34,768 nt of DNA from an uncultured Clostridium sp. (lineage in GTDB: Bacteria > Bacillota > Clostridia > Clostridiales > Clostridiaceae). The stretch spans positions 1 through 34,768 of the forward strand of contig CACZYK010000047.1 of assembly GCA_902785295.1 (NCBI GenBank). The letters are read 5' to 3'. The translations under genes were made by a program, and so were the position numbers. Position 1 is the stretch's first letter. Every line of letters starts with the position of its first letter. Under the pieces are notes generated by a model. The model was not told the DNA's origin. It saw only the letters and a list, made by a program, of their open reading frames with translations, and made no database searches. Below, piece after piece: positions 9,862 through 34,448 of the stretch.

Positions 9862-11318
9862 TAAAATGGACCCTTTGTCAAGGACAATTTAAAAAAGAGG
9901 GTTAAGCTACTAAAAGCTGATTTCTGTATTTTACAGGAGTCAGCTTTTTTAAATTCCATTGACAACGATGATTATTATAATAGTCAATATAATCATCAAT
10001 AGCATTCTCAACTTCTTTCAATGAAGTACAATTTTTATAGTTAACTTCATCTTTCAGATGGCCGAAAAAAGATTCTTGAGGGGCATTATCCCAACAGTTA
10101 CCTCGTCTTGACATAGATTGTCCAAGATTATTATCTTTTAATAATTTTTGATATTTAGGACTAGTGTAATGAGCTCCTTGATCTGAATGAATAAATGCAT
10201 CTTTAGATAGTTTAAAATCTTTATTAGCCATTAAGTTATTTATAGTAGTTATAACTATGTCTAACTCTAAACTACTTGATACATTATAAGATAATATTTC
10301 ATTAGTTGAGGCATCTTTGATGGTCGACAAATAGGCCATCTGGTTTACACCATATGGCAAGTACGTAATATCTGTAAGAAGTACTTTCCCAGGTACTCCT
10401 TGTTTGAAATTTCTATTAAGAAGATTCGGAAGAACTCTATGTTCTTTTGTTGCTTTAGCCATTCTTTTATAAGGATTAGCTTTTCTTATAGGACAAACTA
10501 TATTGAATTTTCTCATAATTCTTTGAATTCTCTTTCTATTATATGTAATACCAAAACTGTTTTCTAAAATCATTTTGATTGAACGAGAACCTTTCTTATA
10601 TCCTTTAAAGTTAAATGCTTTTAATACATTATCTTTAATTATAAGATCATTATCTTCCTTAGCCCTTCTTAATGTTTTTGTTTTTAAATATCTATAATAC
10701 CCGGAACGTGAAACTTGAGCTATATCACATAAATGTTTAATACTAGGATGAATTTCAAGGGTATTAGACAAGTTTTCTATTAATTTAAATGCTTCAGCTG
10801 CAATTAATTTACCTTTCCTCACCTGCCTTTCTTGCAGCTCTAATTTTTTTAACAGTTCAATTTCAGCTTTCAAATATTCAATTTCAGCACTTTGTTTTGC
10901 TATAATATCATCCTTTGTGAATTCACGCTCACGCGGACGACCACTATTATTACGACGAGTATCATCTAAGCCTAGAACACCATTTTCTTTATAAGTTCTT
11001 TTCCATCTATCTGCTGCACACTCAATACGTTTTAATCCAATTAACTCAATATCAAAACCAGCTTCTTTGAAAATTATTCTTGGAGTTTTTCCATTATTGT
11101 ATTCTGCGATAAAATGAATTTTAAATTCATTAGTATATGTAATTGATTTAGCACTAACTTTTTTTACATATTTATTTGTAGACAACTTATTAATTTCTTC
11201 ATTTGAAAATTTCTTCTTACTCATTAGTTAAATCACCTCATAAAGTTATTATACAAAAAAAGACTCTATATAGATATACACGCTTTTATTTCGTGTCTAC
11301 TATATAGGGTCCATTTTA
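9862..11318 (-). mobile_element. IS3-family insertion sequence (IS150-like)
   Basis: The element is bounded by a 13-base perfect inverted repeat, TAAAATGGACCCT at 9862-9874 and its complement at 11306-11318. The core TGGACCCT pairs 9867-9874 with 11306-11313, and the similarity continues patchily inward. If the true ends are TGGACC the element is 9867-11313. No clear target-site duplication was found with either choice. It carries one full-length transposase gene on the minus strand. It sits between a HAD phosphatase gene and a gene starting 54 bases past the right end, whose native upstream DNA it may have displaced. Confidence 0.88.
9902..11224 (-). CDS. IS3-family transposase (fused OrfAB)
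   Basis: This 440-residue transposase combines, in one frame, the DNA-binding OrfA part and the catalytic OrfB part. The first is a helix-turn-helix in about residues 30-95, with GRPRERE and a leucine-zipper-like stretch AEIEYLKAEIELLKK. IS150-type elements usually make the fusion by -1 frameshifting. The rve/DDE catalytic core shows all three acids: D in LTDITYLPYG, D in IHSDQGAHYT and E in NAPQESFFGHLKDE. No stop or frameshift was seen, so it may be active. GAGGTG lies upstream of the ATG at 11224. It cuts and joins the element ends. Confidence 0.95.
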   Translation of the reverse strand: MSKKKFSNEEINKLSTNKYVKKVSAKSITYTNEFKIHFIAEYNNGKTPRIIFKEAGFDIELIGLKRIECAADRWKRTYKENGVLGLDDTRRNNSGRPREREFTKDDIIAKQSAEIEYLKAEIELLKKLELQERQVRKGKLIAAEAFKLIENLSNTLEIHPSIKHLCDIAQVSRSGYYRYLKTKTLRRAKEDNDLIIKDNVLKAFNFKGYKKGSRSIKMILENSFGITYNRKRIQRIMRKFNIVCPIRKANPYKRMAKATKEHRVLPNLLNRNFKQGVPGKVLLTDITYLPYGVNQMAYLSTIKDASTNEILSYNVSSSLELDIVITTINNLMANKDFKLSKDAFIHSDQGAHYTSPKYQKLLKDNNLGQSMSRRGNCWDNAPQESFFGHLKDEVNYKNCTSLKEVENAIDDYIDYYNNHRCQWNLKKLTPVKYRNQLLVA

Positions 11319-15648: not shown

Positions 15649-16311
15649 ATGCATGAGCAAAAAAGAATAGCTGTTTTAATAGATTCAGATAATATATCTC
15701 ATAATTATGTAAAAATAATATTTGATGAATTAGAGGAATATGGTGTTCCAACTTACAAAAGAATATATGGTGATTGGTCAAAGAATACTGGATGGAAGGA
15801 AAAGCTATTGGAAAATTCAATAAATCCAATACAACAATATAGCTATACAACTGGAAAAAATGCTACAGATTCCATTATGATTATTGATGCTATGGATATA
15901 TTATATACAAAGGATATTGATATATTCTGCTTAGTAACAAGTGATAGTGATTTTACAAGACTTGCAATGAGGTTAAGAGAAGAAGGAAAATTTGTTATTG
16001 GAATGGGAGAAAGCAAAACTCCTAAGGCATTCGTAAAGTCTTGTGACCAATTTAAATACTTAGATTTATTGCTTCAAGATGATGAGAAGGAAGTAGGAAA
16101 TATAATAAAAAATAATGATTCTGAAAAGAATACTTCAAATGAAGAGGACGAAGATGATGTTACAGATATATCATTAATAAAAGATTTTATTGTAAAAGTA
16201 ATTCATGGGGACAATGAAGCAGGAAAGAGAACAGATTTAGGAACACTAGGAAAGAAGCTTAATGAGAAATTCTCAGAATTTGATCCTTTATTGAAAATAT
16301 TAATGGATTAA
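15649..16311 (+). CDS. NYN-domain (LabA/PIN-like) protein, truncated by frameshift
   Basis: The NYN domain (about residues 5-140) belongs to the PIN-like nuclease superfamily. Its acidic residues are visible: D12 and D14 in VLIDSDNISHNY, D in DSIMIIDAMDIL and TSDSDFTRLAMRL. Such proteins cut or bind RNA. A charged linker (about 150-180) leads to an OST-HTH/LOTUS domain (ISLIKDFIVKVI to GTLGKKLNEKFSEFD), which breaks off at residue 220. The expected continuation is found downstream in another frame, so the gene was longer. The ATG has the ribosome binding site AGGTGGTGGAG. It is followed closely by a PLD-helicase gene on the same strand, which suggests a shared nucleic-acid-related role. Confidence 0.85.
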   Translation: MHEQKRIAVLIDSDNISHNYVKIIFDELEEYGVPTYKRIYGDWSKNTGWKEKLLENSINPIQQYSYTTGKNATDSIMIIDAMDILYTKDIDIFCLVTSDSDFTRLAMRLREEGKFVIGMGESKTPKAFVKSCDQFKYLDLLLQDDEKEVGNIIKNNDSEKNTSNEEDEDDVTDISLIKDFIVKVIHGDNEAGKRTDLGTLGKKLNEKFSEFDPLLKILMD

Positions 16312-16610: not shown

Positions 16611-19565
16611 ATGGCTATATTAAGGGATAAAATTTTATTAAATAATATAGAGCCTAAATCTATTATTAATTCCAACAAAATTAGTGAAGAGATACTTAAA
16701 GCTAGTGAAAAAGGATTAATTAATAGTAGGATATATTCAAACTTGGCATTAACTCCAAAGCTAATTATTAATGATTATTCTAAAGGTGATAAAGTATTAA
16801 GTGAGATAATAAATGAATTTAATAGATGTAAGGAGTTTTTTATTTCTGTTGCATTTATAACTTACAGTGGTATATTACCACTTTTGCAAACTTTAGAAGA
16901 ATTAAATAAAAAGGGTGTTAAGGGAAAAATATTAACTACTGATTATCTTAATTTTAGTGACCCTAAAGCATTAAAAAAATTATTGTCATTTCCTAATATT
17001 GAAGTAAAAGTGTATACTAAAGAAAACTTTCATACAAAGGGATATATTTTTAAAGATGAGGATAATTATAAGATTATTGTAGGAAGTTCTAATTTAACAC
17101 AAAGTGCACTAACACAAAATAAGGAATGGAATTTAAAAATATCATCACTTGAAGAGGGAGCATTAACAGAAGAGATTATCTCAGAATTTAATAATCTTTG
17201 GAATGATGCACAGGAGTTAACTCTAGATTGGTTAGAGATATATGAATATATACATAAAAAGCAAATAGAATATACAAGAAAAACGAAAGTACCAAGCATT
17301 AAACAATATAAACTTAGGCCTAATAGAATGCAAGTAGCTGCAATTGAAAATTTAAACAAATTAAGAGAAAATGGAGAGAATAAAGGACTGTTAATTTCAG
17401 CTACAGGAACAGGAAAAACATATTTGTCAGCCTTTGAAATTAGAAATTACAATCCTAAAAAAGCATTATTTATAGTACATAGAGAACAAATAGCAAAGCA
17501 AGCTCTAGAAAGCTATAAAGATGTATTTGGTGAGACAAAAACAATGGGAATTTTATCTGGAAACTATAAAGATACTAATTCAGATATATTATTTTGTACA
17601 ATACAAACTTTATCTAAAGATGATGTATTACATAGTTTTAAAAAAGATGAATTCGATTATATTGTAATTGATGAAGTGCATAAAGCAGGAGCAAATACTT
17701 ATCAAAAGGTAATAAATTATTTTAAACCTAAGTTTTTTTTAGGGATGACAGCAACACCTGAAAGAAATGATGATTTTGACATATTTAAGATGTTTGATTA
17801 TAACATTGCTTATGAAATACGCCTTCAACAAGCATTAGAAGAAGATTTATTATGTCCATTTCACTATTTTGGTATTTCTGATATTACAGTAGATGGAATT
17901 GAACTTGGTGATAATTCAGATTTTAGATTTTTAGTAGCAGAAGAAAGAGTTAATCATATTATTGATAAAATTAAATTTTATGGCTATTGTGGTGATAGAG
18001 TAAAAGGATTAATATTTTGTAGTAATAAAAAAGAAGCTAGAGAGTTATCCAATATTTTTAATAGTCGTGGTTATAAAACAGTTGCTTTAACTGGAGAAGA
18101 TTCTCAAGAAGTTAGAGAAAATGCTATTAAAAGATTAGAACAAGATAATCAAGATGATTGTTTAGATTATATTTTTACTGTAGATATTTTTAATGAAGGA
18201 GTAGATATTCCAGCTATAAATCAAATAGTTATGTTAAGACCAACTCAATCATCAATAATTTTTGTTCAACAATTAGGAAGGGGACTTAGAAAGAGTAAGT
18301 TTAAAGAGTATGTTGTAATTATTGATTTTGTTGGAAATTATGATAACAACTTCTTAATACCTATAGCTTTATCAGGAGATAGAACTTTTAACAAAGATAA
18401 TATTAGAAAATATGTATTAGAAGGTTCTAGAAGTATACCAGGATGTTCTACAATTAACTTTGATGAAATATCTAAGAAGAAGATTTTTCAATCTATTGAT
18501 AGTGCTAATTTTAATGATATTAAAATAATTAAAGATAGTTATAAACAACTTAAACAAAAGATAGGAAAAATTCCAAGATTAATGGATTTTGATAAGTATA
18601 ATTCTATTGATCCTTTAAGAATCTTTGAAAATAAAAATTTAGGTTCATATTATGCATTCTTAGAAAAATATGAAAAAGAGTATATTGTAAAGCTTAATGA
18701 TATTGAAAAATTATTTGTTGAATTTATTTCAAAAAAGTTAGCTTCTGGAAAAAGAGTACATGAACTTATAATATTAAAACTTATACTTAATAATGAAACT
18801 AAATTAATGTCCACGTTAAGTAAAAAACTAAAAGAAAATTACAATATTAATTTTACCTCAACCACTGAAAAAAATGTTATTAATATTTTGACTAATGAAT
18901 TTTTTACAGGCACAGGAAAAAAGACTTATTCTAAATGTATATTTATAGAGAAAAAAGATGATGATTATGTTGTATCTAAAGAATTTTATAACCTTCTTAA
19001 AAATAAGGAGTTTAAGAATATAGTTAGTGAGTTAATAGAATTTGGTCTTAATAGGTATGAAAAAAATTATAGTAATAGATATGAAAACACCTCTTTTCAA
19101 TTATATCAAAAATATACTTATGAAGATGTATGTAGGCTTTTAGAGTGGGAGAAAGGAGAGGTTGCTCTTAATATTGGAGGATATAAATTTGATAAAAACA
19201 CAAAGACATATCCTGTATTTATTAACTATGACAAACATGAATCTATTGAAGATAGCATTAATTATGAAGATAGATTATTATCAGAATCTCAGTTAATTGC
19301 AATTTCTAAATCAGGAAGAACTAAAAAATCTGATGATGTAGTACAAATCTATAATGCAGAAAAAGATAATGTAAGTATGTACTTATTTATTAGAAAAAAT
19401 AAAGATGATAAAATATCAAAAGAATTTTACTTTTTAGGAAGAATTAAAGCTATTGGAGAACCGAAAGAATTTATTATGAAGAATACAACAAAAACAGCTG
19501 TTGAAATAAAATATCAATTATTTACCCCAATTAGAAGTGACATTTATGATTATATTATTTCTTAA
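16611..19565 (+). CDS. PLD-nuclease / superfamily 2 helicase / DUF3427 protein
   Basis: This 984-residue cytoplasmic protein has three parts. Residues about 70-205 form a phospholipase-D-like nuclease with H141-T-K143 and GSSN (158-161). Residues about 230-600 form a superfamily 2 helicase: Walker A TGTGKT (265-270), DEVH (354-357), MTATPER and motif VI QQLGRGLRKS (553-562). The C-terminal part (about 700-984) matches DUF3427, including the YTYEDVCRLLEW opening. This architecture is restriction-like: a helicase moving on DNA with an attached nuclease. It is frequent in bacterial accessory regions, but its role is not firmly established. The ATG follows the broken NYN gene's stop by 33 bases. 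All motifs and the full length are intact. Confidence 0.92.
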   Translation: MAILRDKILLNNIEPKSIINSNKISEEILKASEKGLINSRIYSNLALTPKLIINDYSKGDKVLSEIINEFNRCKEFFISVAFITYSGILPLLQTLEELNKKGVKGKILTTDYLNFSDPKALKKLLSFPNIEVKVYTKENFHTKGYIFKDEDNYKIIVGSSNLTQSALTQNKEWNLKISSLEEGALTEEIISEFNNLWNDAQELTLDWLEIYEYIHKKQIEYTRKTKVPSIKQYKLRPNRMQVAAIENLNKLRENGENKGLLISATGTGKTYLSAFEIRNYNPKKALFIVHREQIAKQALESYKDVFGETKTMGILSGNYKDTNSDILFCTIQTLSKDDVLHSFKKDEFDYIVIDEVHKAGANTYQKVINYFKPKFFLGMTATPERNDDFDIFKMFDYNIAYEIRLQQALEEDLLCPFHYFGISDITVDGIELGDNSDFRFLVAEERVNHIIDKIKFYGYCGDRVKGLIFCSNKKEARELSNIFNSRGYKTVALTGEDSQEVRENAIKRLEQDNQDDCLDYIFTVDIFNEGVDIPAINQIVMLRPTQSSIIFVQQLGRGLRKSKFKEYVVIIDFVGNYDNNFLIPIALSGDRTFNKDNIRKYVLEGSRSIPGCSTINFDEISKKKIFQSIDSANFNDIKIIKDSYKQLKQKIGKIPRLMDFDKYNSIDPLRIFENKNLGSYYAFLEKYEKEYIVKLNDIEKLFVEFISKKLASGKRVHELIILKLILNNETKLMSTLSKKLKENYNINFTSTTEKNVINILTNEFFTGTGKKTYSKCIFIEKKDDDYVVSKEFYNLLKNKEFKNIVSELIEFGLNRYEKNYSNRYENTSFQLYQKYTYEDVCRLLEWEKGEVALNIGGYKFDKNTKTYPVFINYDKHESIEDSINYEDRLLSESQLIAISKSGRTKKSDDVVQIYNAEKDNVSMYLFIRKNKDDKISKEFYFLGRIKAIGEPKEFIMKNTTKTAVEIKYQLFTPIRSDIYDYIIS

Positions 19566-19606
19566 TAATTAAGATTATATTGTTACATAAAATTATTTAT
19601 AAAAAG

Positions 19607-19640
19607 AAAGCGTGATACTTTAATACTGTCACGCTTTTTT
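19607..19640 (+). terminator. Intrinsic terminator after the PLD-helicase
   Basis: AAAGCGTGA (19607-19615) pairs with TCACGCTTT (19629-19637), followed by T residues to 19640. GC-rich stem relative to the region; a strong rho-independent terminator. Confidence 0.88.
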
Positions 19641-19722
19641 ATAAATTAGATAATTTCTGAAATCATGAAAAATACATAATCTAAAAAGTAGATTTTTTAG
19701 TTTTATATAAAATTTTATATTT

Positions 19723-20118
19723 TTATATAGTAGATAATAATTTTTTTACAGCAGGGCGGTCTGCTGGTGCCCAGTTTAAGCTTTCAAGATAATCAATAGG
19801 AAGCCATATTAATTTTGCATGTTCATTGGCCTTAGGAGGCCCTTCAATAAGCTTACATTTAACGGTTATTAAGTTTACAATTATCTTATCATATTCATAA
19901 ATATTATCATTAAACAAGTCTAAAGTTTCTATAGTGCAATCTAGTTCTTCATGAATTTCTCTAACTATTGCATCTTGAATTGTTTCCCCTTTTTCTATTT
20001 TTCCTCCAGGAAATTCCCAAAAGTTAGATAAAGACATATTTTTTGAACGTAAGGCACATAATATTTCTTTATTTTCATTTTCAATTATAGCTCCAACAAC
20101 TTTAATAGTTTTTTTCAT
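19723..20118 (-). CDS. Nudix hydrolase (MutT-like)
   Basis: This 131-residue hydrolase carries a Nudix box: GGKIEKGET, then VREIHEEL, with the Gly of the terminal EEXG replaced by Asp (EELD). The N-terminal strand VVGAIIENENKEILCALRS and WEFPGGK are typical of MutT-type enzymes that cleave 8-oxo-dGTP or other nucleoside triphosphates. The ATG at 20118 (MKKTIKV) is preceded by GAGGTG; a GTG nine bases earlier overlaps that site and is less likely. It lies 45 bases after the oxidoreductase gene on the same strand and is probably its operon partner. It converges with the PLD-helicase gene; a housecleaning role is the default and the substrate is uncertain. Confidence 0.9.
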   Translation of the reverse strand: MKKTIKVVGAIIENENKEILCALRSKNMSLSNFWEFPGGKIEKGETIQDAIVREIHEELDCTIETLDLFNDNIYEYDKIIVNLITVKCKLIEGPPKANEHAKLIWLPIDYLESLNWAPADRPAVKKLLSTI

Positions 20119-20163
20119 ATTAGTCACCTCAAATATTATGGTAACACAAATTAGAAATAATCT

Positions 20164-21334: not shown

Positions 21335-21874
21335 ATGACTGGTAAAAAAACATATAAATGTTGTATTTTTGACTTAGATGGAACTTTAATAAATTCTATA
21401 AAAGCTATGACTTATAGTGTTAATCTTACATTAAAGGAAAATAATCTTGGTTCTATTAATGATGAGGAGTGTAAAATTTTTATTGGTGATGGATATAAAA
21501 AACTTATAGAACGTTCTTTAATTCATTGTGGAGATAAAGAATTAAAGTATTATGAAGAATCTTTAACTCTTTATCAAAAGTACTTTAAAGAGCATTGCCT
21601 TTATGGTGTTAAGGCTTATGATGGAATTAAAGATGTGCTTTTAGAATTAAAGAAAAGAAATATAAAAATAGCAGTTTTATCAAATAAGCCTCATGAAAGA
21701 ACTTTAGATAATGTAAATGCAATATTTGGAGAAAATTATTTTATGAAAACAGGAATTTCAGCAAAGATGGATACAATAGGAGTTGCTTGGGGTTTTAGAA
21801 CAGTTGAAGAATTAGAAAGTTATAATCCAATGAAGATTATTAAAAGCCCTAAAGAAATTTTAGATATCATATAA
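21335..21874 (+). CDS. HAD phosphatase (Gph-like) with internal deletion of the active-site block
   Basis: The N-terminus is a normal phosphoglycolate-phosphatase-like HAD enzyme: D13-L-D15-G-T nucleophile motif, a helical cap, and motif II in VLSNKPHE. The C-terminus is also normal (MKTGISAKMDTIGVAWGFR, then EELESYNPMKII). Between them, at F136/M137 (position 21742/21743), the region with the motif III Lys and the motif IV GDxxTD that should directly precede MKTG is missing. The protein is 179 residues, about 36 short of the usual 215, and the frame is kept. Without the magnesium-binding acids it should be inactive. A promoter with good match was not found. It converges with hcp. Confidence 0.88.
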   Translation: MTGKKTYKCCIFDLDGTLINSIKAMTYSVNLTLKENNLGSINDEECKIFIGDGYKKLIERSLIHCGDKELKYYEESLTLYQKYFKEHCLYGVKAYDGIKDVLLELKKRNIKIAVLSNKPHERTLDNVNAIFGENYFMKTGISAKMDTIGVAWGFRTVEELESYNPMKIIKSPKEILDII

Positions 21875-27082: not shown

Positions 27083-27384
27083 CTAAAATAATATAAAAAA
27101 ATCTCCATCCTGAAACAATAGGACGAAGAAAAAATCATCGCGGTACCACCTAAATTTGCATTAAAAAATACACACTCATTATAATACAGATAAAATTTAT
27201 CGATATTATTACCCTTTTAACGGTAGGTACTCCGTTTAATTCTACTTTCAAAAATGATTTCTATTAAAAGCTCCTAGGCTACATTCTACTTCTTTATCAT
27301 GGAAATTTACACCTTGCATTTCCTCTCTTTGTTTCAAAAATAAGTATACTCCTCCTAATCAAGGCTTGTTATTATTCATCTGTG
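27083..27384 (-). promoter_or_regulatory. T-box riboswitch leader of ilvBN
   Basis: The T-box sequence AGGTGGTACCGCG is at 27151-27139 on the minus strand. A downstream hairpin with a T run (27126-27095) is the terminator, and alternative pairing with the T-box region gives the antiterminator. Stem I shows the AGTA/GAA loop-E strands (27350-27347 and 27286-27284) bounding the specifier loop GAATGTAG (27286-27279). The codon can be read as GTA (Val) or TGT (Cys). The UGGU of the T-box matches a tRNA with discriminator A, which fits valine and not cysteine. When its tRNA is uncharged, ilvBN is expressed. Confidence 0.92.
27095..27126 (-). terminator. T-box leader terminator
   Basis: On the minus strand the stem TCGTCCT/AGGATGGA, with G-U pairs, is followed by GATTTTTTT just before the ilvB ribosome binding site. 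It competes with the antiterminator formed around the T-box sequence. Confidence 0.85.
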
Positions 27385-30046: not shown

Positions 30047-32263
30047 ATGAATAAAGATATTAAATGGCTATTTATAAATAAAAAATCAAAATTTTATGAT
30101 GAGACTATAGACCTTGTATATGAGGAACTTTTTAAAGATTATAATTATTCAAAGGAAACTATATTAGCAGAAAAACAAAATAATGGCATACATATAATAG
30201 CCATTTATGACTCAAAAGTAGTTGGTCATGCTAGATTGTTTGTTGAAAATAACATAGGGATGATATCTCAGGTTGCAGTTGCAAAAGGTTATAGAAATTT
30301 AAAAATAGGTTCTGGTGTTATAAATATATTAGTAAAAGAATCTGAAAAATTAAAAATAGATTTTGTTGAGTTAAATTCAAGAGAAGATGCTATTGAATTT
30401 TATGAGAAACTTGGATTCTCTAGAAATGGAGAATTAAAAAAATCTGTTAAGACAGGAGTACCTTTATTAAATATGAGAAAGTGTGTGAAAAGTAATATGA
30501 AAGAAATAAATTTAAATTGGAGTTTAGATGAAATATATAAATCATTTGATGATGAAGAATTCAAAAATGATATTAATAAATTAGATGAATGTATAAAAGA
30601 TATAAATTCTTGGGGGGCATCTATTTTAAGAAGAAAGGATTCTCATGTAAAAAAGCTTGAGGAATATATAGAAAAACGTTCTGATTTTGAAGAATTATCT
30701 AATAAACTTGAGATTTTTATAAATCTTAGTTTAAGTGTAAATACTAAAGATAAAGAAGCATTAAGATACTCTGATATAATAGAAAAAAAGCTTACAGAAG
30801 TTGTTGAGACATTTGCAAAGGTTGAAAAGTGGATTAGTTCTATAGATAACTTAGATTGCATTATAGAAAAATCAAATATTCTTAAAGAGTATAAATTTTT
30901 ATTTAGTGAAATTGTTGAGAAGGGCAAGTACATATTAAGTGAAAAAGAAGAAAATATTATATCCAATATGAAAAATACAGGTTCTAGTGCATGGGAAAAG
31001 CTTAAGGATAATTTAGTTTCAAATTTAATGGTGGATATCAATGGAAAAGAAGAACCTCTTACAGTAGTTTTAAATATGGCTTATGATAAAGATGAAAATG
31101 TAAGAAAAAGTGCCTATGAAGCAGAAATAAAATCATATAAAAAGATTGAAGAGGGAGTAGCAGCTGCTTTAAATGGAATAAAGGGTGAAGTTTTAACAAT
31201 TTCTAATATAAGAGGATATAAATCTCCTCTTCAAATGACTCTTTTAGAATCTAGAATGGATGAAGAATCTTTAAATGCAATGCTTTCTGCAATGAAGGAA
31301 AGCTTACCTGTATTTAGAAAGTATTTAAGAAAAAAAGGAGAGCTTTTAGGACACAAAAATGGTCTTCCTTTTTATGATTTATACGCTCCTATAGTTGATT
31401 GTGATATGAAGTTTTCCTATGAAGAAGCAGGAAATTTTGTTGAAAAAAACTTTAGAAGTTTTAGTGAAAGTTTAGGAAACTATGCAAGAAAAGCTATTGA
31501 TAATAGGTGGATAGATGTTATGCCTAAAGAAGGAAAAGTAGGTGGAGCATTTTGTGAAAATATTCATTATATAGGTGAAAGTAGATTCTTATTAAACTTT
31601 GGAGGAAGTTTTAGTGATGTAGTTACTATGGCACATGAATTAGGGCATGGTTTTCATGGAGAATGTTTAAAAAATGAAAAAATATTAAACTTTGATTATC
31701 CAATGCCAATAGCAGAAACAGCTTCAACATTTTGTGAAACTATAATAAAAAATGCTACAATAAAAAACGCTAGCAAAAAAGAAGCTTTAGCAATATTAGA
31801 AACAGAAATATGTGATGATACTCAAGTTATAGTTGATATATATTCAAGATTTATATTTGAAAAGAATTTGTTTGAAAAGAGAAAAGAATGTGCATTATCA
31901 GTAGAAGAAATTAAAAATCTTATGATTGATGCACAAAAAGAAGCTTATGGTGATGGCTTAGACCAAAACTTTTTACATCCTTATATGTGGCTTTGGAAAC
32001 CTCACTATTATGATGCTGATTATAATTTTTATAATTATCCATATGCCTTTGGATTATTATTTTCAAAAGGATTATATGCAGAATACTTAAAAAGAGGAGA
32101 TTCCTTTGTAAAAGATTATGAAAAACTTCTTTCTATAACAGGAAAAAATAAACTTGAAGATGTAGCTAAGGTTATGGGAATAGATATTCATAATGTGGAA
32201 TTTTGGAGAAACTCATTAAAGCTTATAGAAGATAATATAGAAAAATTTATAAGCTTAACTTAA
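30047..32263 (+). CDS. GNAT acetyltransferase fused to M3 oligoendopeptidase F
   Basis: This 738-residue protein joins two enzymes. Residues about 1-146 are a GNAT N-acetyltransferase with the acetyl-CoA loop Q75-V-A-V-A-K-G-Y-R-N-L-K-I-G-S-G90 and the FYEKLGF motif. Residues about 151-738 are a complete oligoendopeptidase F (M3B zinc peptidase) with HELGH (530-534) and the downstream IAETASTFCE ligand helix. PepF proteins are usually about 600 residues and stand alone. The peptidase part starts at M151 (MKEINLNWSL), the natural PepF start, with no good ribosome binding site before it. GAGG precedes ATG 30047. It hydrolyses oligopeptides in the cytoplasm; the acetyltransferase substrate is unknown. 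Confidence 0.93.
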   Translation: MNKDIKWLFINKKSKFYDETIDLVYEELFKDYNYSKETILAEKQNNGIHIIAIYDSKVVGHARLFVENNIGMISQVAVAKGYRNLKIGSGVINILVKESEKLKIDFVELNSREDAIEFYEKLGFSRNGELKKSVKTGVPLLNMRKCVKSNMKEINLNWSLDEIYKSFDDEEFKNDINKLDECIKDINSWGASILRRKDSHVKKLEEYIEKRSDFEELSNKLEIFINLSLSVNTKDKEALRYSDIIEKKLTEVVETFAKVEKWISSIDNLDCIIEKSNILKEYKFLFSEIVEKGKYILSEKEENIISNMKNTGSSAWEKLKDNLVSNLMVDINGKEEPLTVVLNMAYDKDENVRKSAYEAEIKSYKKIEEGVAAALNGIKGEVLTISNIRGYKSPLQMTLLESRMDEESLNAMLSAMKESLPVFRKYLRKKGELLGHKNGLPFYDLYAPIVDCDMKFSYEEAGNFVEKNFRSFSESLGNYARKAIDNRWIDVMPKEGKVGGAFCENIHYIGESRFLLNFGGSFSDVVTMAHELGHGFHGECLKNEKILNFDYPMPIAETASTFCETIIKNATIKNASKKEALAILETEICDDTQVIVDIYSRFIFEKNLFEKRKECALSVEEIKNLMIDAQKEAYGDGLDQNFLHPYMWLWKPHYYDADYNFYNYPYAFGLLFSKGLYAEYLKRGDSFVKDYEKLLSITGKNKLEDVAKVMGIDIHNVEFWRNSLKLIEDNIEKFISLT

Positions 32264-32318: not shown

Positions 32319-33748
32319 ATGAAATTGGATAGTGTAGTAAGAATTCAAGAAATTGAAGTTGAAAACTTTAAAAATGTATTAAATGGAGTAATAACATTTG
32401 AAAGTTATAAAAAAAGGATTTTTTTCAAGATTCACATAACTCTGATATAGTTGGTTTATATGGGCAAAATGGTTCTGGAAAAACAAGTTTAGTTGAAGCA
32501 ATTGATATTTTAAAATCAGTTTTGTTAGGACAAGAACTTAGTAATAGTATAAGAAATTTAATATCATATGATAAGAAATATTGCAGATTAAAATTTACCT
32601 TTTTAATTAAGATAGATAAAAATAAGTATATTGTTAAATATGGTTTTAAGTTAACATATAATGAAGAAGAAGATAAGATTGAAGTTTTAGAAGAAATTAT
32701 AAAATATTCTGAAATAGATGTTGCTAATAAAAAAATATTATCAACAAAAAGTATTATTGAATTTAATATGAATGACAAAACTATATTTAAACCTCTTAAA
32801 AACTATAATCTAATTGTGAATAATAATAGTATAAATAAAACAGAGTTAATTGTTGCTAAAGAATTAGCAAAGGAAAATAGTACATCTTTTATTTTTAGCA
32901 AAAGATGTATTAAATTATTTAAAGAAAGCTTTGAGAATGAGAATAAAGTATTTATTGATATAATTAATTCTTTATGTAATTTTGGTTTAAAATCTTTTGT
33001 AATAAAAAATAATTATTTAGGACATATTGATTTAGGAACTATAATGCCCTTTTCCTTCTTGGTAAAAAATGACAAAGGGGTTGCACAAGGAACAATAGCT
33101 TTTTCTTTATTTGAAACTAATAGGGTTCCGATAAATATATTTAATATTTTAGATAAAATTATTATACAAATAAATACAGTTTTAAGCTCATTGATACCAG
33201 GACTTACTATAGAAACTAAAGAAATTAATGAAGAACTTATGGAAAATGGGAATGTAGGAAAAGTATTTGAATTGCTTTCAGTAAGAAAAGTATTTGAATT
33301 GCTTTCAGTAAGAGAAAATATAAAAATACCATTAAAATATGAGTCAGATGGTATAAAAAAGATAATTTCTATTTTAAGTGCACTTATAGCAATGTATAAT
33401 AATGAAAAAATATGTGTTGTAATAGATGAAATGGATTCAGGTATTTTTGAATTTTTACTTGGAGAGCTTTTAGGAGTATTAAAAGAAAAGGCTGAAGGAC
33501 AATTGATATTTACATCTCATAATCTTAGAGCATTAGAAGTTTTAGATAAAAATGATATAATTTTCACTACAACTAATCCTAATAATAGATATATTAAGAT
33601 GAAAAATGTTAAGAAAACAAATAATTTAAGAGATTTCTATTTACGTGAAATATTCTTAGGAGGCCAAAATGAGCCAATATATAATAAGACTAAAAGTTAT
33701 GCTATAAGTAGAGCTTTTAGGAAAGCAGGAAATTATGAGCAAAAGTAA
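32319..33748 (+). pseudogene. ABC-type (OLD/AAA15-like) ATPase, frameshifted before Walker A
   Basis: The gene opens at ATG 32319 or, with better spacing from GGAG, TTG 32325: VVRIQEIEVENFKNVLNG, typical of SMC/OLD-type ATPase N-termini. This frame stops at 32450. One extra A in the seven-A tract at 32409-32415 would join it to SYKKKDFFQDSHNSDIVG and the Walker A GQNGSGKT (32462-32485). The rest is intact to 33748: signature-like YESDGIKKIISIL, Walker B CVVIDEMDSG, and H-loop FTSHNLRALE. A 27-base tandem duplication lies at 33260-33313. The ATPase should work with the TOPRIM protein encoded next. As read, only an ATPase lacking Walker A could be made. Confidence 0.82.
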
Positions 33749-34448
33749 GGTAATTGTATTTATAGTAGAAGGATTTTCTGATAAAGAGGCACTTAATGGT
33801 ATTCTCTCTGAATTATATGATAATAAAAAAATTGTTTTTTCTATTGTAGATGGAGATATAACAACAAAAAATTCTACTAAACCAGAAAATATTCGTGAAA
33901 AAATAGGTGAATGCATAAAAATTGCAATGCAAAAGGATAAATTTTTAAAGACTGATATTGATATGGTTATACATCTTGTAGATACAGATGGAGTTTACAT
34001 TCCTAATGAAAATATTATAAAAAATGAAAGTATAAATATAATATATAATGAAAAAAATATAGAAACTAATAATGTTAAAAATATACAAGAAAGAAATGAA
34101 AAGAAAAGAAGGATATTAAATATTTTAAGTAGTATGTCATCAATATATAAAGGAAAAAATAGTGTACCTTATTATATGTTTTACATGTCTTGCAACTTAG
34201 AACATGTATTACATAATATACAAAATGCAACTGATGATGAAAAAGTTAATTTAGCAGAAAGTTTAGAAGATAAGTATATTGATAATCCAAATGAATTTGT
34301 AAAATTCATTAGTAATAGTAGTTTTACAGTTAAGGGCAATTATAAGGAAACATGGGAATTTATAAAAGAAGGTCTAAATTCATTAAATAGATATAGTAAC
34401 TTTCATTTGTTTTTTCAATATCTAATGATATATGTTAATCTTTTTTAA
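33735..34448 (+). CDS. TOPRIM-like protein (OLD/PARIS-type partner)
   Basis: This 237-residue protein starts with a TOPRIM-like fold: IVFIVEGFSDKEAL with the key E12, and the acidic pair D83-T-D85 in VIHLVDTDGVYI. TOPRIM domains of OLD, Gabija and AriB (PARIS) proteins use this E...DxD pattern to bind metal and cut nucleic acid. The C-terminal part (about residues 140-237) is helical and not recognised. The ATG lies inside the end of the ATPase gene, an overlap of 14 bases, so translation is coupled. Split ATPase plus TOPRIM pairs are typical of phage-defence modules, which makes this the best defence candidate here; the exact family is not assigned. Confidence 0.75.
   Translation: MSKSKVIVFIVEGFSDKEALNGILSELYDNKKIVFSIVDGDITTKNSTKPENIREKIGECIKIAMQKDKFLKTDIDMVIHLVDTDGVYIPNENIIKNESINIIYNEKNIETNNVKNIQERNEKKRRILNILSSMSSIYKGKNSVPYYMFYMSCNLEHVLHNIQNATDDEKVNLAESLEDKYIDNPNEFVKFISNSSFTVKGNYKETWEFIKEGLNSLNRYSNFHLFFQYLMIYVNLF

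Follow-up and report, generated by a model that had tools for sequence, protein, structure and literature searches.

Organization of the locus

The window analysed here, 34,768 nucleotides of DNA from an uncultured Clostridium sp., is one entire contig (G000:C47) of a 3.2 Mb genome in 151 contigs. Near its right end lies a pair of genes for an ABC-type ATPase and a TOPRIM-like protein, which an earlier note, made from the sequence alone, had put forward as a split OLD/PARIS-like defence candidate. The features of the pair are the following.

32319..32450, plus strand: first piece of the ATPase gene (piece 1); 43 codons for the N-terminus, in a frame that stops ahead of Walker A; similar to the N-terminal part in the intact relative (L002/L020)
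32411..33748, plus strand: ATPase gene, piece 2, in another frame; Walker A, ESDGIKK, Walker B, H-loop and conserved C-terminus; matches AAA_21 at 1.4e-16 and AbiLi at 2.5e-28
33260..33313, plus strand: perfect 27-bp tandem duplication, in frame, within ATPase piece 2
33735..34448, plus strand: TOPRIM-like nuclease-candidate gene, 237 residues; overlaps the ATPase gene by 14 bases

The motifs that the earlier note had read in the ATPase are all in place: GQNGSGKT (Walker A), ESDGIKK with the signature-like SDGIKK, VVIDEMD (Walker B) and FTSHN (H-loop). So are the 14-base overlap, which runs to the ATPase stop codon at 33746-33748, and the E12 and D83-T-D85 of the TOPRIM-like protein, whose tail beyond about residue 226 is unlike that of its relatives. 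The span given for the genes, 32319..34448, was also right, but the ATPase gene is not a single open reading frame (ORF). It is split over two frames, the second of which is stop-free from 32411. Judging from the sequence, piece 1 more probably starts at the TTG at 32325, which has AGGAG 6 nt ahead of it. The first start codon remaining in piece 2 is the TTG at 32522, downstream of Walker A, so that restarting internally would not restore the ATPase.

A same-genus relative (G052, loci L002/L020) has the pair intact (467 and 234 residues) at the same spot, flanked as in the window by the peptidase gene and a glycogen-debranching-like gene; the latter name comes from a GDE_N match of 25.2 bits, below the cut-off of 27. 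The TOPRIM protein of this relative is 93% identical to that of the window, and its pair does not have the 27-bp duplication. The ratio of nonsynonymous to synonymous substitution rates (dN/dS) between the window pieces and L020 is low, 0.11 for ATPase piece 2 and 0.27 for the TOPRIM gene, which suggests that the ATPase break is either recent or an assembly error. Against G052 there are four frame-breaking indels in the 2.1 kb of the pair and six in the other genes aligned, which total about 10.5 kb, small numbers of which some may lie in the draft of the relative. The window copy is damaged, through decay or assembly error. Because the ATPase frame is lost ahead of Walker A, the system is most likely inactive in the window, barring assembly error. 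The flanks retrieved at 29 other loci with an orthologue of the peptidase showed no trace of the pair or of the downstream gene.

The pair is a conserved family

A contig scan yielded 106 relatives of the TOPRIM protein, and the locus counts refer to the best 80 of these. A full ATPase with Walker A lies directly upstream of the TOPRIM gene in 77 of the 80, bearing out the coupling that had been proposed. The upstream ATPase is only a partial ORF in the other three, L043, L067 and L090, of which the last two, and not L043, reach the contig end. The two proteins are separate ORFs in all 77 loci having a full ATPase, and the TOPRIM match begins at most 14 bases from the ATPase stop in 75 of them, the exceptions being L054 (65 bases) and L071 (24 bases). 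The pair is a two-gene operon whose genes overlap or abut. This linkage, the AAA_21 match and the TOPRIM matches in 18 other genomes of the taxonomic family show that the pair is more than chance.

The window protein and 64 of the 80 relatives were aligned, leaving out 2 truncated and 14 near-duplicate sequences. Sixteen residues are invariant in all 65 rows: E12, G13, D41, D83, D85, Y104, R120, N121, K124, Y146, N154, H157, K170, F188, W207 and N222. The acidic set of OLD-type TOPRIM domains, E12, D/E16, D83, D85 and E/D156, is likewise present in 65/65, as mapped by sequence order rather than coordinates on the ligand list in the part of PMC6755086 available to us. Each of the 36 ATPases aligned (of 77) has YGQNGSGK, E333, G336, K339, D361-E362, D364 and T390-S391-H392-N393. 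The dN/dS values are low, 0.03-0.22 for the ATPase in the 9 of 10 pairs that were measurable and 0.02-0.35 for the TOPRIM gene in the measurable 8 of 10, and the pairs are not independent since four share L034. Both genes are under purifying selection in the pairs measured.

General domain models recognise the TOPRIM proteins faintly. With Pfam, DUF4276 matches 23 of the 65 (best 8.6e-5), Toprim 16 (2.4e-4) and OLD-like_TOPRIM 7 (4.2e-3). Sequence searches of the PDB found no TOPRIM relative for the TOPRIM protein: a first search gave none at E 1, and the 15 matches of a second, none better than E 0.12, were integrins and a chorismate mutase and were taken as chance. In a structural search OLD TOPRIM domains were among the top matches, and in BFVD two uncharacterised pithovirus proteins ranked above an RloB-like one. 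A first structure model, built from 13 sequences, was poor (predicted local distance difference test 62.9) and was not used. A literature search, with most subscription papers outside its reach, found no paper on exactly this pair.

Relation to known ATPase-TOPRIM systems

AbiL (RloA/RloB) is the nearest known relative, nearer than PARIS. It too has two adjacent genes, the ABC-type ATPase first and the TOPRIM-related effector second, and both proteins of the family reach it by remote profile match. Of the PADLOC models, AbiLi fits the family ATPase best: the ATPase of the intact relative scores 7.3e-31 on it and 6e-16 on the next model, AriA, and both models match 36/36 family ATPases at E 0.001. 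The ATPase profile matches an RloA-type profile at 99.4% over about 107 columns. The TOPRIM profile aligns with 19 RloB proteins at 52%, from E12 to about D85 only, and the RloB consensus WSNxCIExWFxLHF recalls the S-x-N-L-E-H stretch of the family. In a tree of 64 ATPases, rooted for drawing only, 20 RloB-partner ATPases are the neighbours of the family with weak support (90/71).

These likenesses would fit a divergent AbiL with the same abortive-infection mechanism, merely too diverged for the models, an explanation that we find unlikely. Four ATPases encoded beside RloB reach 7e-70 to 4e-88 on AbiLi, a lead over the family ATPase of some 39 to 57 orders of magnitude; even a PDC-M12-type ATPase (5e-39) does better than the family. 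The same four reach 5e-26 to 2e-31 on AriA. Because these controls outscore the family ATPase, it lies well outside AbiL by the AbiLi model and has no special closeness to AriA. In the tree its 36 members form one group (100/100) on a stem of 2.6 changes per column. The TOPRIM protein is unrecognised by RloB and AbiLii at member level. The AbiLii model matches 1 of the 65 at 0.017, against 3.6e-21 for a single true AbiLii control, and an RloB search of the window's own genome at E 0.001 picked a gene on another contig (G000:C74), not the window gene. AbiL membership was rejected on these AbiLii and RloB results, and AbiL was retained as the closest relative.

The same genome has a second ATPase-TOPRIM pair, of AbiL type, at G000:C74:5073-5714 (L143). 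Its ATPase of 458 residues (AbiLi 7e-70) and its RloB protein (2.5e-30) are both open.

PARIS (AriA/AriB), a proposed Class 4 OLD, resembles the family in encoding the ATPase and the TOPRIM nuclease separately, according to the available part of PMC10568477, and in the AriA matches given above, which are weaker for the family than for the RloB partners. The AriB model does not match the window protein at E 1, nor the 65 family members at E 0.1; a control DUF4435 protein (L160) matches it at 4.7e-25. A DUF4435 search of the own genome found nothing. PARIS membership was rejected on the failed AriB test with its positive control. Of the split OLD/PARIS-like label, the coupling and the OLD-type acidic set stood and the PARIS part did not. 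The profile comparison suggested in the earlier note thus gave AbiLi and AriA matches for the ATPase, and a partner that matches neither AriB nor RloB/AbiLii at member level.

The OLD proteins of Classes 1-3, including GajA and the retron OLD, share with the family the catalytic order E, E/D, DxD, E/D, K, by sequence order. They differ in that OLD joins ATPase and TOPRIM in one polypeptide, whereas the family has two proteins. The family also has no recurring single partner gene, its commonest neighbour families occurring in 7 loci, and DEAD or ResIII domains are found in just 3 of its 136 neighbours.

HEC-01, PDC-M12 and MADS mad3/mad4 of PADLOC also consist of an ATPase and a small partner. 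Among the 65 TOPRIM proteins, HEC-01B matches 4 (best 2.5e-4), PDC-M12B 3 (2.8e-4) and mad4 5 (2.3e-3); for the window protein itself PADLOC gave no match. With one control protein each for AbiLii, HEC-01B, PDC-M12B and AriB, a true HEC-01B scores 2e-75 and a true PDC-M12B 2e-13, so the partner protein of the family falls below member-level scores of HEC-01 and PDC-M12. A DUF4276/HEC-01 identity was rejected, as its matches were sub-threshold only. Alignment of the family profile by hhalign with single DUF4276, DUF4435 and PDC-M12 proteins (1.6, 0.3 and 7.8%, respectively) was uninformative.

NetFlax TOPRIM_OLD:AAA-D29 is another likeness. In the part of PMC10440598 that was available, neutralisation of TOPRIM_OLD toxicity by AAA partners was assayed in E. 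coli for pairs of C. algidicarnis and S. agalactiae. The C. algidicarnis pair differs from the family in belonging to the RloB-homologous node D44. There the authors offer phage defence only as speculation, and a third AAA pair, screened with phages, gave no hits.

The pair described here is real, and so is the separate branch that it forms, whose TOPRIM partner matches no named system at member level, as had been suspected.

Distribution and mobility

The family is patchy and mobile. TOPRIM matches occur in 19 of 206 genomes of the taxonomic family (E 0.001, own included; 13 near full-length, 6 partial) and in 7 of 398 genomes of the phylum, own included. A full ATPase stands beside a broken TOPRIM gene in L015, L016 and L017, three of the six genomes with partial matches, and in L035 and L099 of the 80-locus set. 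A long TOPRIM ORF stands beside a split or partial ATPase in the window, L006 and L043. The broken copies have no clear asymmetry between ATPase loss and TOPRIM loss.

Plasmid copies were found in Ruminococcus albus (R. albus 7, pRUMAL01, NC_014824.1, near a tyrosine recombinase), in Lysinibacillus capsici (pFN9A) near conjugal genes, and in Paenibacillus amylolyticus. One copy lies in the record of Clostridioides phage pCD1602_4, a record that carries no annotation; a viral-contig scan for the family found none. In L034 (Sporosalibacterium, class Tissierellia) the pair is just upstream of virB4, whose product matches 4ag5 at 8e-112, and a 12.3 kb stretch with the pair in it is shared with L040 (Alkaliphilus, class Clostridia) at 95.3% identity. 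Related neighbour genes stand beside the pair in seven loci (L029, L034, L039, L040, L044, L049 and L050), a setting that looks like the cargo site of a conjugative module.

Such contexts, the conjugal genes of the L. capsici plasmid among them, would suit a conjugation-related module that shields an integrative and conjugative element or plasmid from rival elements, by exclusion or as an anti-plasmid nuclease, rather than from phage. We regard this as quite improbable, given that the most frequent neighbour families occur in only 7 loci, that L031 and L042 have the pair alone in common with L034 (81.6 and 82.4%) with flanks unmatched at E 1e-20, and that a copy is present in a phage record too. 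Still less probable is a housekeeping pair for RNA or DNA processing, RNase M5-like or in repair: TOPRIM catalytic sites are common to RNase M5 and primases (available part of PMC6755086) and RecF matches the ATPase weakly, at 6.6e-7 and 28.8 bits, far short of the 172-bit cut-off, but the presence is patchy, the contexts are mobile and 6 of the 19 matched genomes hold partial relics.

The neighbours were also scanned for defence genes, excluding L043, L067, L090 and five near-duplicate module loci. At 1e-15 the 136 immediate neighbours (2 of 138 were dropped for length) match 155 PADLOC families; JetD, Cas1 and IetA, with two members each, are among the 25 shown. The 95 far neighbours match 10 families, with the AbiU, AbiLi, AriA, mad3, PDC-M12A and PDC-S14 models at one member each. 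The neighbourhood check that had been proposed thus turned up a few adjacent defence genes besides the plasmid and conjugative contexts, and it lends little weight to a defence role because the PADLOC models are redundant, the two sets unequal and the number of matching proteins not given.

Proposed function and mechanism

Coupling of an ABC-type ATPase to a TOPRIM nuclease is found in many defence systems. We put the probability at about 0.68 that the family is an OLD-like system split into ATPase and TOPRIM proteins, separate from both AbiL and PARIS, and acts as mobile anti-invader immunity. A defence role of the family is likely, and the protection would most likely be aimed at phages or other invading DNA.

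By analogy with PARIS and OLD/Gabija, the likeliest mechanism would be a two-metal TOPRIM nuclease that the ATPase gates, either releasing or activating it. A dimer of the ATPase would bind the TOPRIM protein and keep it inactive. An invader product or a nucleic-acid signal, read via ATP binding, may then free or activate the TOPRIM protein, which would act as a metal-dependent endonuclease, either on host tRNA or other RNA like AriB or on DNA like OLD/GajA. The outcome would be growth arrest or destruction of the invader. In PARIS, the sensing of a phage trigger protein by AriA sets AriB free, which cuts tRNA (PMC12409363, in the part available); OLD/Gabija is described as cutting DNA (PMC10568477, likewise in part). 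We lean slightly toward RNA rather than DNA as the substrate, because the split pair AriAB would be the better precedent.

A further-reaching form of this reading, to which we give about even odds, is that the family constitutes a class of split OLD-like immunity in its own right, not yet named, which conjugative elements, plasmids and a phage have spread over Bacillota. Its TOPRIM effector has invariant residues of its own (D41, Y104, R120-N121, K124, H157, K170, W207 and N222) and may thus have its own substrate.

Other features of the window

Adjacent to the pair, a GNAT acetyltransferase domain and an M3 peptidase share a single ORF (30047-32263). The open frames at 29 other same-genus peptidase-orthologue loci have 590-617 residues, and these loci gave no GNAT match at E 1e-3. 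The HAD phosphatase ORF at 21335-21874 (179 residues) has a HAD_2 match that ends at profile position 124 of 178; it appears as if it were short of an internal stretch with the frame kept. A PLD-ResIII-DUF3427 helicase-nuclease and, after it, a NUDIX hydrolase in convergent orientation occupy 16611-20127, a neighbourhood that looks repair- or defence-like, and the NYN-domain protein at 15649-16311 has a 31-base indel relative to G052. On the minus strand, a transposase with rve domains (9902-11224) is presumably of IS3 type, and a T-box leader (27116-27371) lies upstream of genes that we take to be acetolactate-synthase-like.

Significance of the family

To our knowledge, few substrates of ATPase-TOPRIM defence systems are known. 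The family would contribute a further effector, one left unnamed at member level by every PADLOC 2.0.0 model. Well delimited and represented by intact copies in named Bacillota, such as that on pRUMAL01 of R. albus 7, this additional family would allow one to ask directly whether a given ATPase-TOPRIM pair cuts tRNA or DNA.
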